Made by a program: the position numbers and the translations under genes. Below, piece by piece: positions 2,097 through 29,560 of a stretch of 64,000 nt of DNA (its first letter is position 1; every line of letters begins with the position of its first letter). Origin of the DNA: Auraticoccus cholistanensis (GTDB lineage: Bacteria; Actinomycetota; Actinomycetes; Propionibacteriales; Propionibacteriaceae); contig NZ_WPCU01000010.1 of assembly GCF_009742705.1 (NCBI RefSeq), positions 538,522 to 602,521 of the forward strand, in the 5' to 3' direction. Below the pieces are notes generated by a model, which ran no database searches, had not been told where the DNA came from, and saw nothing but the letters and a program-made list of their open reading frames with translations.

Positions 2097-2968
2097 GTGA
2101 TCGTCCACCGCAGCAGCACCCCCGACGCCGAGTTCGCCCGGCTCGACCGCGCCGCGGCCGACCGGTTCCGCTCCCTCGTCGTCGACGAGCTGGCCCGCCG
2201 CGGGCGCCCGGGCCGGATCGAGAACGGGGTCGCCCGCACCGGCGAGCGCGCCTACGGGCTGGAGAACCTGGTCCGCCTCGTCGCGCCCCGCCCGCAGGAG
2301 GAGTGGCCCGCGCTGGTCGCGCACCACCTCGACGTCGTGGACGCCGCGTCCGAGCGCGAGCACCCCCGGTCGACCTGGCCGCGCTGCTGCCGCGGCTGCG
2401 CCGGGTGGAGGACGCCGTCCCAGGCACCCTGCAGCGGCGGCTGACCGACGACCTCGTCAGCCTGCTGGTGCTCGACGAGCCCGACCGGGTGACCGCCCCG
2501 ACGGCCGAGGCCCTGCTCGCCACGGGCGTCGCCGCGGACGACCTCGGCCGCCAGGCGCTGGCCAACCTGGCCGACCACCTCGGCGCCGAGCCGCTGGACC
2601 GCTTCGAGGCCCAGACCGACGGCCGGCCGGTGCACTGCCTGGCCGGCGACAGCTTCTTCGTCGCCTCGGCCGCGCTGCTGCCCGCCAGCCAGGGCTGGCT
2701 CGGTCCCGACCCGTACGGGCACGGCCACCTGGTGGCCGTCCCCAGCCGGCACCTGCTGATGGCCACGCCGGTGGGCGGCCCGCCGGACTGGGTGGTCACC
2801 ACGAACACCCTCGTCCAGCTGGCGGTCGCGCGCCACGACGCCGAACCCGGGCCCATCAGCCCCGACGTCTACTGGGTGCGCGCCGACCGCTGGACGCGGA
2901 TCAGCCAGCGCACGCCGAGCGGCCTGAGCGTCACCCCCGGCCCGGAGCTGGAGGCGCTGCTGCGCTGA
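2097..2968 (+). pseudogene. DUF1444-like protein, reading frame broken by a 1-base deletion
   Basis: Two partial reading frames join into one protein. The first starts at GTG 2097 (IVHRSSTPDAEFARLDR...) and runs to about 2365; the second, in the frame one base earlier, starts near 2366 (VDLAALLPRLRRVED...) and runs to the stop at 2966-2968. Adding one C to the run of five at 2362-2366 restores a continuous protein of about 290 residues. The second half has segments like DUF1444/YtpQ proteins: LLVLDEPDRVTAPTAEAL, an ANLADHLG block and VAVPSRHLLMATP. That family match is weak, and function is unknown. TACCGT lies seven bases before the GTG, fitting a leaderless start. Both halves keep normal high-GC codon use, so the break is either recent or a sequencing error. 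Confidence 0.6.
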
Positions 2969-2978
2969 GCGGGTCGGC

Positions 2979-2983
<5 letters not shown>
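2964..2983. terminator. Bidirectional hairpin between convergent genes
   Basis: GCTGAGC at 2964-2970 and GCTCAGC at 2977-2983 form a perfect 7-bp stem with a 6-base loop. The stop codon of the plus-strand gene and that of glyS are both inside the stem, one in each arm. There is no T-tract. Confidence 0.55.
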
Positions 2984-4370
<1,387 letters not shown>

Positions 4371-21583: not shown

Positions 21584-22834
21584 TCAGGGGACGGCGGGGA
21601 CGAGCGCGGCCGCGGCGGGTTCGTCGCGCAGCGCCCGCCGGAGCACGACGACCATGACGGCGCCCACGGCCACCGCGAGGCCGCCGAGGGCGACGTAGGA
21701 GCCCGCCGCCCCCCACCAGCCGGCGGCCAGCCCGCCGAGGGTGAGGGCCAGCACGGACGCGGTCCGGGTGCAGCCGGTCAACGTGGCCAGCACCCGGCCG
21801 CGGGAGGCGTCGGGGGCGCGCAGCACCAGCAGCGCACCCACGGAGGTGTTGTAGGCCCCGGAGCCCGCCGCCACGAGCAGGCCGAGGGCGGCGGCGGCCC
21901 AGGCGTCGGCCAGCAGGCCCGTCAGCAGCAGACCGCTGCCCATGGCCAGGGTGCCGGTGGCGCAGCTGAGCACCCGGGTCCGCTCGGAGCCGATCCGCCC
22001 GGCCAGCTGCGCGCCGACCACCTGGCCGGCGAAGGCCGCGGAGGTGCCGAGGGCGTACAGCCACGCCGGGGCCCCCAGGTCGACGGTGACCAGCACCGGT
22101 CGCAGCACGTTGGTGGCCTCCACGGCCAGCACCACCGCCACCGAGGACAGCAGCACGGTGAGCAGCACCCGGTCGGCCCGGACGACCTGCCAGCCGCCCC
22201 GGGCCCGCTCTCCCCGCGGTGCGGCCGGCTGCGGCCGGCGGACCGTGCGGACGCGGGCCGCGGCCAGCGTCTCCAGCGCGAAGGCGCCGGCCTGCACGAG
22301 CACGGTGGCGGCGAACCCCAGCTGCTCCAGCAGCAGCGCCGCGACCCCGGCCCCGGCCGCCCCGGCCAGCGCGGAGAGCGAGAGCTGGTGACCGCTGACG
22401 CGCGCCACCGCCTGCTCCCCCACCACGTGGGGCACCAGCGCCGCCCAGCACGGCAGCGTCACCGCGAGCGACGCCTGCAGCACCATCTGGGCGACCAGAA
22501 GCGGCAGCAGCCCGCCCAGGATCCCCTCCCCCGGCGTGTGCGGGAGGACCGCGAGGGTCGCGGCCAGCAGCACCTGGACCACCCCCAGCACGAGCAGCAG
22601 CCGGCGGGAGTCGACCCGGTCGACCAGCCGTCCGGCCAGCGGCGCCATGGCGATGGCCGGCACGGCGTTGGACAGGTAGAGCGCGGTCAGCAGCAGCGGC
22701 TGGCCGGCGGCGGCCACCTGCAGGGTCAGCGCCAGGAAGGCGGCGGCCGAGCCGAAGGTCGCGGCGGAGCGCCCGGCGAGCAGCCAGCGGAGGTCGGCGG
22801 CCTGCGCCGGAGAGATACGAAGCGTTGACTTCAT
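21584..22834 (-). CDS. MFS transporter controlled by the divergent ArsR regulator
   Basis: Twelve-helix permease of 416 residues, in the branch that includes macrolide-type efflux proteins. It begins MKSTLRISPAQAADLRWLLAGRSAATFGSAAAFLALTLQVA. The helix 2-3 loop reads MAPLAGRLVDRVDSRRLL, a variant of motif A. The second half shows the same fold without strong motifs. The ATG at 22834 lies inside the operator region; TACGCT eight bases upstream, with TTGACT 17 bases before that, predicts an mRNA with almost no leader. Divergence from an ArsR gene sharing a symmetric operator suggests repression released by a small ligand, perhaps the transported compound. Confidence 0.9.
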   Translation of the reverse strand: MKSTLRISPAQAADLRWLLAGRSAATFGSAAAFLALTLQVAAAGQPLLLTALYLSNAVPAIAMAPLAGRLVDRVDSRRLLLVLGVVQVLLAATLAVLPHTPGEGILGGLLPLLVAQMVLQASLAVTLPCWAALVPHVVGEQAVARVSGHQLSLSALAGAAGAGVAALLLEQLGFAATVLVQAGAFALETLAAARVRTVRRPQPAAPRGERARGGWQVVRADRVLLTVLLSSVAVVLAVEATNVLRPVLVTVDLGAPAWLYALGTSAAFAGQVVGAQLAGRIGSERTRVLSCATGTLAMGSGLLLTGLLADAWAAAALGLLVAAGSGAYNTSVGALLVLRAPDASRGRVLATLTGCTRTASVLALTLGGLAAGWWGAAGSYVALGGLAVAVGAVMVVVLRRALRDEPAAAALVPAVP

Positions 22835-22877
22835 GATCGTGAAGCGTAGGCTTCATAAATCCTGAAGTCAACGCTTC
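22819..22877. promoter_or_regulatory. Symmetric ArsR operator with overlapping divergent promoters
   Basis: GAAGCGTTGACTTC at 22819-22832 recurs as its exact reverse complement at 22864-22877. A third site, GAAGCGTAGGCTTC (22841-22854), is centred between them. Each outer copy contains TTGACT. On the minus strand TTGACT, 17 bases, TACGCT leads to the MFS start; on the plus strand TTGACT, 16 bases, TAGGCT leads toward arsR. Bound regulator would cover both promoters. Confidence 0.8.
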
Positions 22878-22894: not shown

Positions 22895-23452
22895 ATGGAC
22901 GCCGGCCCGCTGCAGGACACCCTCGACGTCTCCGACCCGGCGCTGCTCCGCGCGCTCGGTCACCCGGTGCGGATGCGGGTGCTGATGGAGATCGGCAGCA
23001 CCCGGACGCTGACGGCCACCGAGGTGGCCCGGCTGACCGGCCTGACGCCCTCGGCGGCCAGCCACCACCTCCGCTTCCTCGAGCGGCACGGGCTGATCGA
23101 GCGCGCCCCCGGCGAGGGCGACCAGCGGACCCGGCCGTGGCGCCGCAGCCACCGCAGCCTCAACCTCGGCCGCCCCGACGACCCCGCGCAGCGCTCGGCG
23201 CTGGAGCTGACGGTGCGGGCGCAGCTGGGCATCCTGGCCGACGACCTGACCGCGGGCCTGCCCGGTGAGCAGGACCGCTCGCTGCTCTCCACCGGCACCC
23301 ACCGGCTGCGCCCGGAGGAGGTGGAGGAGCTCCGCACCGAGCTGCTGGCGCTGGCCGAGCGCTGGAGCCGGCGGTCGGAGGCCAACGGCCCCGAGGTGCC
23401 CCGGGTGCGGCTGGCGCTGGCGGTCGCCCCGCTGGACGACCCCGCGGACTAG
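22895..23452 (+). CDS. ArsR-family (HTH_20) transcriptional regulator
   Basis: Winged-helix repressor of 185 residues. The DNA-binding part is at residues 8-75: [24 protein letters not shown], then [31 protein letters not shown]. The C-terminal part is longer than in metal-sensing ArsR proteins and has no Cys metal site, so the ligand is probably organic. TACGCT lies six bases before the ATG, allowing a leaderless mRNA; a second promoter inside the operator is also possible. It probably controls the divergent MFS and itself. Its TAG stop forms part of the TAGAGT hexamer that fits as -10 box of uppS. Confidence 0.9.
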
Positions 23453-27556: not shown

Positions 27557-28282
27557 GTGGTGACGTCGATCGCCCGTCAGACCGAGCGCCAGCTGGGCGG
27601 GCCGCGCAGCGTGCTCGTCCGCCAGCAGCGCGACCACCAGGAGCTCGACCGGCTGGTGCACGCCATCGACGCCGCCGAGGGCGACGAGCGCCTGGACCTG
27701 CTCACCGACCTGGCCCGGCTGGTGTTCCCGCACGCCTTCGCCGAGGAGTCGGTGCTGTGGCCCGCGATCCGCCGGGTGCTGCCGGAGGGCGAGCAGCTCA
27801 CCCTGCAGATCGAGCAGGAGCACCAGGAGATCAACGAGCTGTGGAGCGAGCTGGAGCAGACCACGCCCGGCGACGGCCGCCACGAGGAGCTGTGGCCGAG
27901 GATCGTCGAGCTGCTGCGCGAGGACGTCCGCGACGAGGAGGACGAGCTGCTCCCCCGGCTGCAGGAGAAGCTGGGGCGCCGCGGGCTCGTCCAGCTCGGG
28001 CTGTCGTGGGAGGTGGTGCGTCGGATCGCGCCGACGCGCCCGCACCCGGTGGTGGCCCGCCGCCCGCCGGGCAACGTGGCGGCCGCGCTGCCGATGACCG
28101 TGCTCGACCGCTCCCGCGACCTGCTGGACCGCACCGCCCGCACCCGGGACGGCCGGGTGGCCCAGCTCGCCGGCGGGCTCAGCCGGGCCGCCGCCGGCGT
28201 CGCCGGCCGCCTCGAGCACGTGCCGCCGCTCACCGAGGGCGAGGACCCCAGCACCCACTCCGGCCGCTCCGACCGCACCTGA
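27557..28282 (+). CDS. Hemerythrin HHE domain protein
   Basis: Protein of 241 residues with an N-terminal four-helix HHE cation-binding domain (about residues 15-150). Candidate di-iron ligands are seen in VRQQRDHQELDRLVHAI, RLVFPHAFAEESVLW, QIEQEHQEINELW and DVRDEEDELLP. Such domains bind oxygen or nitric oxide or handle iron. The remaining 90 residues are basic, low in hydrophobic content and without a known domain. AAGGAGGA precedes two adjacent GTG codons at 27557 and 27560; either may be used. It stands alone and is convergent with era across the large inverted repeat. Confidence 0.85.
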   Translation: MVTSIARQTERQLGGPRSVLVRQQRDHQELDRLVHAIDAAEGDERLDLLTDLARLVFPHAFAEESVLWPAIRRVLPEGEQLTLQIEQEHQEINELWSELEQTTPGDGRHEELWPRIVELLREDVRDEEDELLPRLQEKLGRRGLVQLGLSWEVVRRIAPTRPHPVVARRPPGNVAAALPMTVLDRSRDLLDRTARTRDGRVAQLAGGLSRAAAGVAGRLEHVPPLTEGEDPSTHSGRSDRT

Positions 28283-28335
28283 CCCGCCGCACTTCCCCGC
28301 TCCCGGCTTCCGCACCTCCCGACCGCCGCCGCCCT

Positions 28336-28580
28336 GCCCGCGTGTATGTCGTCGCGGTCACGGTCGGCGTGTCGCGGCGTGTCGGGCTGTCACGGCCCGA
28401 CGGCGTACACGTTCCCAGGGTGATCGCCCTCATCCCCGTCCGGGCGCGTGTCCGGGCCCGGCTGCGGGCCGCCTGAGCCGGGCTCGCGGCCGCGGCCCTG
28501 AAGACGTGTACGCCGTGGCGCCCGGACACGGCGACACGCCGCGCCACGCCGACCGTGACCCCGACGACATACAGCCGGGC
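28336..28580. repeat. Long imperfect inverted repeat between convergent genes
   Basis: The 345-base gap between the hemerythrin gene and era holds no credible gene. Left arm 28336-28413 and right arm 28500-28580 are reverse complements with roughly 85 percent identity. Blocks shared exactly include TGTATGTCGTCG, GGTCACGGTCGGCGTG, CGCGGCGTGTCG and ACGGCGTACACGT. The 86-base centre is GC-rich with smaller repeats. It could fold into one very long hairpin. It might be a miniature mobile or repeated intergenic element, or a terminator enlarged by duplication. Confidence 0.8.
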
Positions 28581-28627
28581 AGGGTGCGGGGCGCTGGGAC
28601 GGGGGCGGGGCGGCGCGTGACGGAGGG

Positions 28628-29560
28628 TCAGAAGCCGAGGCGGTTGAGGGACTTGGCGTCGCGCTGCCAGTCCTTCATGACCTTGACCTTGAGGTCCAGG
28701 TGGACCGGGGTGCCGAGCAGGGTCTGGATCTGCATGCGGGCGGCGGTGCCGACGTCGCGCAGCCGCGAGCCCCGGTGGCCGATGACGATGCCCTTCTGGG
28801 AGTCGCGCTCGACCACCATGGTGGCGAAGACGTCGAGCAGCGGCTTGTCCTCGGGGCGGCCCTCGCGCAGCCCCATCTCGTCCACCACCACGGTGATCGA
28901 GTGCGGCAGCTCGTCGCGGACGCCCTCCAGCGCGGCCTCGCGGATCAGCTCGGCCACCAGCACCTCGTCGGGCTCGTCGGTCACCTCGCCGTCCGGGTAG
29001 TAGGCCGGGCCGGGCGGCAGCAGCCCGATGATCTCGTCGGTGACCACGTCGACCTGGTCGTCGGTCAGCGCCGACACCGGGATGATGTGCTCCCAGCGCA
29101 GCCCCAGCTCGGCCTCCAGCGCGCCGATGGACATCAGGTGCTCGCGCAGCCGGGGCCCGGAGACGAGGTCGGTCTTGGTGGCCAGCGCCACCAGCTTGGG
29201 ACGGCGGCTGAGCGCGGCGACCTGCTGCACCAGGTAGGTGTCGCCGGGCCCGATCCGCTGGTCCGAGGGCAGGCAGACGCCGATCACGTCGACCTCGGAC
29301 CAGGTGGCGCGCACGACGTCGTTGAGCCGCTCGCCCAGCAGGGTCCGGGGCTTGTGCAGCCCGGGGGTGTCGATCAGCACCAGCTGCGCGTCGGGGCGGG
29401 TGACGATGCCCTTGACCGCGTGCCGGGTGGTCTGCGGCTTGGAGGAGGCGATGGCCACCTTGCTGCCCACGACGGCGTTGGTCAGCGTGGACTTGCCGGC
29501 GTTGGGCCGGCCGACGAAGCAGGCGAACCCCGAGCGGAACTCAGGCGGTGTGGTGGTCAT
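28628..29560 (-). CDS. era: GTPase Era
   Basis: Essential Ras-like GTPase that binds the 3' end of 16S rRNA during 30S assembly, 310 residues. G1 is GRPNAGKST, G3 DTPGLH and G4 TKTD (Thr instead of the usual Asn, as in other actinobacterial Era proteins). The C-terminal KH domain includes VVERDSQKGIVIGHRGSRLRDVGTAARMQIQTLL. The start overlaps the 3' end of the CNNM/CBS gene by 20 bases, so phoH-ybeY-CNNM-era is one operon, the classic order. It is the last gene before the inverted repeat. Confidence 0.96.
   Translation of the reverse strand: MTTTPPEFRSGFACFVGRPNAGKSTLTNAVVGSKVAIASSKPQTTRHAVKGIVTRPDAQLVLIDTPGLHKPRTLLGERLNDVVRATWSEVDVIGVCLPSDQRIGPGDTYLVQQVAALSRRPKLVALATKTDLVSGPRLREHLMSIGALEAELGLRWEHIIPVSALTDDQVDVVTDEIIGLLPPGPAYYPDGEVTDEPDEVLVAELIREAALEGVRDELPHSITVVVDEMGLREGRPEDKPLLDVFATMVVERDSQKGIVIGHRGSRLRDVGTAARMQIQTLLGTPVHLDLKVKVMKDWQRDAKSLNRLGF

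Follow-up and report, generated by a model that had tools for sequence, protein, structure and literature searches.

Intergenic palindromic repeats are common, and it is seldom clear whether they act as RNA, serve as DNA sites or are selfish remnants. The REP, REPIN and BIME repeats are dispersed, extragenic palindromic units that occur as inverted doublets and as singlets (PMC3116915, PMC3733652, PMC12306157). As far as the cited passages describe them, they lie near the 3' ends of genes, between codirectional or convergent genes, and the spacers of the doublets are 20-100 bp in many families. In the cited part of PMC3733652, the defining feature of a REP or REPIN is a small hairpin of 20-40 bp with a GTAG or CGTC tag. 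Bacterial MITEs, as portrayed in the relevant part of PMC10969869, are short, intergenic and non-coding elements with inverted ends, which are lineage-specific and missing from some orthologous sites. In addition, the phased operators of the lac and araC repressor loops consist of two sites spaced by the in vivo helical repeat of 11.1-11.6 bp; in the cited section, when repression by lac loops was fitted for E. coli in vivo, the helical repeat came out at 11.60 and 11.08 bp per turn (PMC1762422).

Here, an inverted repeat in a 64,000-nt stretch of DNA from Auraticoccus cholistanensis (Propionibacteriaceae), referred to as the window, is compared with these systems. The family to which it belongs shares with REP, REPIN and BIME repeats the dispersed extragenic units, the inverted doublets with spacers, the singlets and the position close to 3' ends, in codirectional or convergent gaps. 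However, its unit is 89 bp long and lacks the tagged small hairpin of the cited definition, and its spacers are phased to the helix. Membership of a RAYT/REPIN system was rejected because the Y1 transposase (RAYT, PF01797) was found in none of the three genomes that carry the family, while the control was positive in 5 of 14 known genomes. All the features listed above for MITEs are also shared; in contrast to MITEs as described in the cited part, no common internal sequence, consistent target-site duplication, decayed copy or matching transposase was found. The spacing by the helical repeat is that of the lac and araC operators, but the pairs are repeated at about 30 loci, comprise putative composite sites of 89 bp and are located mostly after genes, not at promoters. 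The family is nearest to REP/REPIN in layout and placement, is partly MITE-like, would work like phased operator pairs and is filed in none of these classes. In the part of the literature covered, on Propionibacteriaceae and on helix-phased or REP-type repeats, no comparable repeat was found.

The inverted repeat between a hemerythrin-domain gene and era

A repeat search of the window revealed an imperfect inverted repeat with arms of 104 nt each (28317-28420 and 28496-28599), which are 80% complementary and separated by a gap of 75 nt. By comparison with other copies, the conserved part was narrowed to two inward-facing units of 89 nt, which are 84.3% identical over 89 nt (Table 1). The inverted repeat at 28332-28584 is real and far beyond chance. 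An earlier note on this DNA had described arms of about 80 bases matching at about 85% and lying between convergent genes, and both parts of that description are borne out by the units, the arms and the two flanking genes. The best named match of the Era protein is from Enemella (78%), and the relatives of this protein place the DNA in Propionibacteriaceae.

Table 1. Features of the repeat and its surroundings, in positions of the window.
Feature	Position	Strand	Remarks
Hemerythrin HHE domain protein gene, flanking	27557-28282	+	Gene call and domain match
C-rich, G-poor 5' flank of left unit, from hemerythrin-gene stop to unit	28283-28331	+	Family-wide flank property; graded, without sharp edge
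Left 89-bp unit, CCCTG...CAGGG, reads inward	28332-28420	+	88.7 bits, top score among the units of the genome
Putative outer half-site TGTATGTCGTC, left unit (columns 12-22)	28343-28353	+	Conservation complete or no lower than 90% at columns 12-21; inverted partner is columns 68-78
Core, 10-bp direct repeats (CGGyGTGTCG type), left unit	28355-28391	+	At shift 10, self-match of 0.64, a value reached in 0.7% of shuffles
Putative inner half-site, left unit (columns 68-78)	28399-28409	+	Inverted imperfect copy of outer half-site
Spacer, 75 bp	28421-28495		Sequence private to this copy; length on the ~11.1-bp grid
Right 89-bp unit, reads inward	28496-28584	-	81.7 bits
Putative inner half-site, right unit (columns 68-78)	28507-28517	-	Column conservation
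Core with 10-bp direct repeats, right unit	28525-28561	-	Column conservation and self-match
Putative outer half-site, right unit (columns 12-22)	28563-28573	-	Column conservation
C-rich, G-poor 5' flank of right unit, from era stop to unit	28585-28627	-	Family-wide flank property; graded, without sharp edge
era, Era GTPase gene, flanking	28628-29560	-	Gene call and domain match

Elsewhere in the window, an operator-like palindrome is present at 22819-22877, just upstream of the gene at 22895. It consists of GAAGCGTTGACTTCA and its inverse, with an extra GAAGCGTAGGCTTCA copy between the arms, and is probably the site of a local regulator.

Copy number and distribution of the family

A BLAST search of the repeat region against its own genome (G000) gave 65 matches, which fall in about 34 places, including three weak ones. 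Using a sequence-only model of the unit, 52 units were identified in G000, arranged as 20 facing pairs and 12 solitary units at about thirty loci. The scores are bimodal: 50 units reach 72-89 bits, the remaining two are units cut by masked N runs, and nothing lies between 72 bits and these two. The 50 unmasked units align over 89 positions with zero gaps and a mean identity of 80%. The highest identity between any two of them is 93.3%, so recent copying is not indicated. With 52 units, the family of intergenic repeats proposed in the earlier note is confirmed, and a single copy lacking conservation, the outcome that it had set against its proposal, is excluded for copy number and conservation.

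Two relatives also carry the element. In G005, from the same genus, 23 units are present as 10 pairs and 3 solitary units, all of them gap-free at 89 bp, whereas G015, from another genus of Propionibacteriaceae, has 10 units, including one pair, with length changes in 3 of the 10; wherever a match ended early in these two genomes, the unit was extended by extrapolation to its full 89 positions. Within the candidates scored, neither the 52 units of G000 nor the 23 of G005 include a decayed or gapped copy; in G000, 150 of 12,230 first-look candidates were scored, a depth at which very weak relics could escape. Identities and columns are based on 50 of the 52 G000 units, the two masked ones being left out. 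Alignment A1 holds 48 of these 50 full units and alignment A2 46 of the 85 units (16/52 from G000, 23/23 from G005 and 7/10 from G015), and a three-genome HMM was built from 78 of the 85. The G005 chromosome has an arc of about 0.97 Mb across the record start (3.70-4.46 and 0-0.21 Mb) in which zero units were found, with 13 loci elsewhere; this arc, noticed post hoc, perhaps reflects depletion near the origin.

Among 198 genomes of the family, searched with stricter filters and 22 candidates scored per genome, a match was obtained in seven, of which three (G000, G005 and G015) were counted as real. The other four gave one match each at 21-26 bits, which was dismissed as chance, the matches being partial and without the CCCTG/CAGGG ends. 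In the order and the class, with 11 candidates scored per genome, 47 of 391 and 32 of 394 genomes gave a match, respectively; apart from the same three genomes, these were one or two each, below 29 bits, and of these weak places G110, G050 and G055 were inspected. Around era in 80 named relatives, the retrieved flanking DNA contains no unit. A phage or plasmid origin was rejected, as the phage and the plasmid collections both yielded no match; five viral contigs were matched by a short pattern, and none of them contains the full unit.

Structure of the unit and its flanks

The strongly conserved blocks of the unit are TGTATGTCGTC (columns 12-22), GGTC, a core of CGGyGTGTCG CGGCGTGTCG CGGTGTC and then GACGGCGTACACG, where the core is made up of direct repeats of about 10 bp. 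The units end in CCCTG and CAGGG, and 52 of the 89 positions of their consensus conform to a palindrome, compared with a mean of 26 and a maximum of 52 in 5000 shuffles. Outside the unit, a C-rich and G-poor tract fades over about 60 nt. In G000, the 10 bases next to the unit have C 0.67 and G 0.18, compared with C 0.42 and G 0.30 at -60 to -51. The 40 nt 5' of the G000 units have C 0.57 and G 0.21-0.23 on the gene-end and gene-start sides alike; in 19 control stretches after stops, each 40 nt long or shorter, the values are C 0.43 and G 0.38. No T run follows the unit in the sequence.

Spacer lengths and helical phasing

The 20 spacers in G000 are 61, 62, 62, 63, 73, 75, 75, 84, 84, 84, 85, 86, 86, 87, 96, 96, 97, 99, 107 and 108 nt long, including that of pair L029 although its left unit is partly masked, and they form clusters at 61-63, 73-75, 84-87, 96-99 and 107-108 bp. 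The ten spacers in G005 measure 83, 85, 104, 106, 116, 117, 118, 120, 125 and 141, and the single one in G015 measures 106. The G000 spacers alone give R = 0.84 at 11.5 bp, which was matched by none of 20,000 uniform and none of 20,000 jittered sets. For all 31 spacers, searched between 10 and 13 bp, the period is 11.1 bp (bootstrap 10.7-11.4), with R 0.71 versus 0.59 at 10.5 bp, and again none of 20,000 jittered and 20,000 uniform sets reached R 0.71. When a grid is fitted to these data themselves, 28 of the 31 spacers fall within a quarter turn of it; two from G005, at 104 and 125 bp, are poor fits. As an independent test, the G005 and G015 spacers were placed at the G000 phase, giving p = 0.02 at 11.2 bp, 0.05 at 11.3, 0.09 at 11.4 and 0.17 at 11.5. 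These spacers back the phasing moderately, and the phasing rests mainly on one genome.

The sequences of the 31 spacers are unrelated between copies, with only short, weak, GC-rich matches, and their self-similarity at lag 11 is 0.339, compared with 0.354 expected. Slippage or tandem repeats were therefore rejected as the source of the 11-bp steps, since the spacers are unrelated and have no 11-nt self-periodicity. Because the lengths step near the in vivo helical repeat of DNA loops, the paired units appear to lie on the same face of the DNA, and in our reading both units would have to sit on one face of supercoiled double-stranded DNA. This helix-phased spacing, which is the decisive feature, is invisible from one copy.

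Placement relative to genes

Placement was taken from a codon-trained gene finder, which differs from an earlier one at L039, where the unit is cut by masked bases. The 30 pairs in G000 and G005 are located in 19 codirectional, 8 convergent and 3 divergent gaps, against a background of 90 gaps without units, each 30 nt or longer (51 codirectional, 12 convergent and 27 divergent) from the window and the fetched loci. Pairs are thus rarer in divergent gaps (3/30 versus 27/90), with p = 0.03 for the pooled data, 0.08 when G000 is taken by itself and 0.64 for G005. Where a solitary unit lies between codirectional genes in G000 or G005, it has the same orientation as the gene upstream of it in all 10 of 10 cases, or 9 of 9 without the doubtful L039. 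This rule fails in G015, where three such units are in sense and three in antisense and where the units themselves look decayed.

Tests of RNA structure

In the earlier note, a structured RNA had been considered, for which no clear support was obtained. Identity between paired units is no higher than between shuffled partners (0.810 versus 0.808, with 8028 of 20,000 shuffles as high, for 19 of the 20 pairs); arm-arm compensation in a long RNA hairpin was therefore rejected, and the long hairpin is not kept by compensation. With RNAalifold, no covarying long stem was found and only a short stem appeared. For the stem of 16 pairs within the unit, 91% of the cells pair and three are compensatory, and 26-52 of 500 shuffles were as high, so that covariation within the unit is weak and a minor RNA role has some room. 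The single Rfam match in 28200-28700 has an E-value of 2.7 and 16.3 bits versus a cut-off of 32, and none is above the gathering score. The predicted hairpin of the 253-nt region has an energy of -202 kcal/mol, and in the sense strand two pairs of the unit stem are G-U.

Gain, loss and the DUF559 gene

The site between era and the hemerythrin gene is empty in G005, where era is 91% identical and the two stops, read by eye, are about 18 nt apart. In G015, a solitary unit is present after era, with a different gene beyond. One or more flanking genes are shared with a locus of G000 at 3 of 9 loci in G015 and at 0 of 13 in G005, and the units at the three sites common to G000 and G015 are not each other's closest relatives. 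A consistent target-site duplication is absent: of the 31 pairs, 26 have none, 4 have 2 nt and 1 has 5 nt. A possible 4-nt duplication, CTCA, is found only at the long form of the element described below. The miniature transposable element suggested in the earlier note has partial support. Presence and absence between relatives at two sites is in line with mobility; the lack of a consistent target-site duplication in 31 pairs, the unrelated spacers and the lack of decayed copies among the 150 of 12,230 candidates scored speak against such an element.

In the long form, at L027 in G000, a single gene (2173-3042) lies between two inward-facing units with 925 nt between them. The last codons and the stop of this gene (L027:3020-3042) are supplied by the right 89-bp unit, at its inner end. 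At the corresponding site in G005, the same two neighbours are present with their stops 5 nt apart, and the entire block of about 1.1 kb is absent. The gene product matches DUF559 above the Pfam cut-off and MTES_1575 below it, and its AbiEi matches are weak. A protein model of modest quality (pLDDT 72) was searched with Foldseek, where a mitoribosome chain ranked first by E-value, with a poor TM, and nothing reached an E-value of 0.001. The catalytic domain of I-Bth0305I (3r3p) was matched at E 0.006 with a target TM of 0.77, and AbiEi (6y8q) at E 0.04 with a target TM of 0.53. The modelled protein thus looks like an AbiEi-like N-terminal part joined to a C-terminal nuclease domain resembling I-Bth0305I, a homing endonuclease of the EDxHD type.

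Homologues of this protein are rare, with two in G000, one in G005 and one in G015. The DUF559-type genes of G005 and G015 sit exactly at the site of the G000 pair L012, where both relatives have such a gene and lack the units. A close orthologue of the unit-flanked gene is absent from G005 (45% identity only), and since G005 keeps gap-free 89-bp units without it, the DUF559 gene is not needed to maintain the units. All four DUF559-type genes in the three genomes adjoin palindromic units, which are of differing sequence families. Around the G005 gene (L158, 562-1416), four palindromic units of about 105 nt (223-326, 406-510, 1414-1520 and 1542-1648) belong to another sequence family, with ends like TGACGGATTYTGACGGTCAGTC. 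Directly before the second G000 gene, a very stable nested palindrome of 108 nt is present (L172:1338-1445, contig C9), and an 89-nt palindrome precedes the gene in G015 (L157:183-271). The motif GTCCACAGC is found upstream of the L027, L172 and L157 genes. Upstream stem scores, for which 220 nt were scored per gene (350 nt for the G005 gene), are 13, 19 and 13 for the G005, second G000 and G015 genes, respectively, and 1 of 57 genes in the window reaches 13; the L027 gene scores 8, which is the background median. This association between DUF559-type genes and palindromes is post hoc and small and is held as a lead, for which no direct precedent was found in the part of the literature covered.

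Proposed mechanism and alternative explanations

The explanation that we favour is that of dispersed, paired, sequence-specific DNA sites, which would be bridged by a protein and act as boundaries at gene ends; as a whole, it has about an even chance of being right. Each 89-bp unit would be a composite binding site, in which a half-site (TGTAyGyCGTC) lies towards either end, the two being inverted relative to each other, in addition to a core of direct repeats of about 10 bp. A protein would bind each unit at its half-sites and its core and bridge the two facing units, looping the spacer DNA of 61-141 bp. Spacers in steps of about 11.1 bp with free sequence would be expected because the two units would have to share one face of negatively supercoiled DNA. 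The complex at gene ends could then block RNA polymerase from both directions, while Rho would be aided by the C-rich leader of the RNA, and copies may have spread by, or derived from, a longer element with a DUF559 gene between two units. The bridging of two units on DNA is the better supported half of this explanation and is probably correct. The role as a transcription boundary is put forward tentatively, at a little below even. The family itself, its constant unit length, the phasing, the missing arm-arm covariation, the placement and the C-rich flanks are observed; from these we infer the protein bridge and the polymerase-stopping role, and we also infer the spread through, or origin from, the DUF559 element. 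As the long form encloses its gene and is absent as a block in the relative, the L027 DUF559 protein is a candidate partner of the units.

An ordinary MITE-like mobile element is unlikely. The 89-bp units would then be transposon ends, the phasing would reflect synapsis on very short DNA and the copies would be selfish or neutral remnants. Work on IS50 is said to have found phase dependence of very short transposons. In the part of the literature covered on phase-dependent transposition, no direct precedent was recognised. The empty sites in G005 at era/hemerythrin and at L027, with its ~1.1-kb unit-DUF559-unit block, the long inverted ends, the solitary units and the copy number that varies by lineage (52, 23 and 10) would all fit mobility. 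However, the spacers are not common to the copies, 26 of the 31 pairs have no target-site duplication, no decayed or gapped copy was seen among the scored candidates of G000 and G005, the top identity of 93.3% does not indicate recent copying, and the long form carries a nuclease-like gene, which is not a known transposase. The DUF559 link could also be given more weight, in a REP-like system where a fused AbiEi-like/homing-endonuclease-like protein is paired with its own palindromic units of about 90-105 bp, the units spread as helix-phased bridged pairs and the hosts keep them as two-sided transcription boundaries. This reading is likewise unlikely. The modelled L027 product resembles both AbiEi antitoxins and homing endonucleases (PMC7319586), but here a single fused protein is predicted.

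A structured RNA, in which the repeat would act as a transcript hairpin and serve as a bidirectional terminator or a stabiliser of mRNA 3' ends, is improbable. It would account for units in sense after gene ends, the C-rich leader, the strong predicted hairpin and the two G-U pairs in the sense strand, but the absent covariation between the two units, the short RNAalifold stem with weak covariation within the unit, the lack of an Rfam family and of a T run, and the spacers in whole DNA turns, for which it offers no reason, argue against it. More improbable still is a nucleoid or topology site, for gyrase, SMC or similar, resembling REP or BIME repeats and without a direct role in transcription. 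Dispersed intergenic pairs, conserved DNA sequence and phased bridging would be in keeping with such a site, and REPs and BIMEs are described in the cited part of PMC2817692 as binding sites of several proteins. The sense orientation of the solitary units and the C-rich flank, however, point to transcription.

Biological meaning

With dozens of naturally occurring pairs whose spacers are free in sequence but phased in length, the sequence alone indicates that the pair acts as double-stranded DNA on one helix face. The family therefore offers a directly testable, repeated bridging site, possibly an insulator between bacterial transcription units. In addition, the link to a homing-endonuclease-like gene could add a second type of enzyme, beside the RAYTs, that travels with palindromic repeats.
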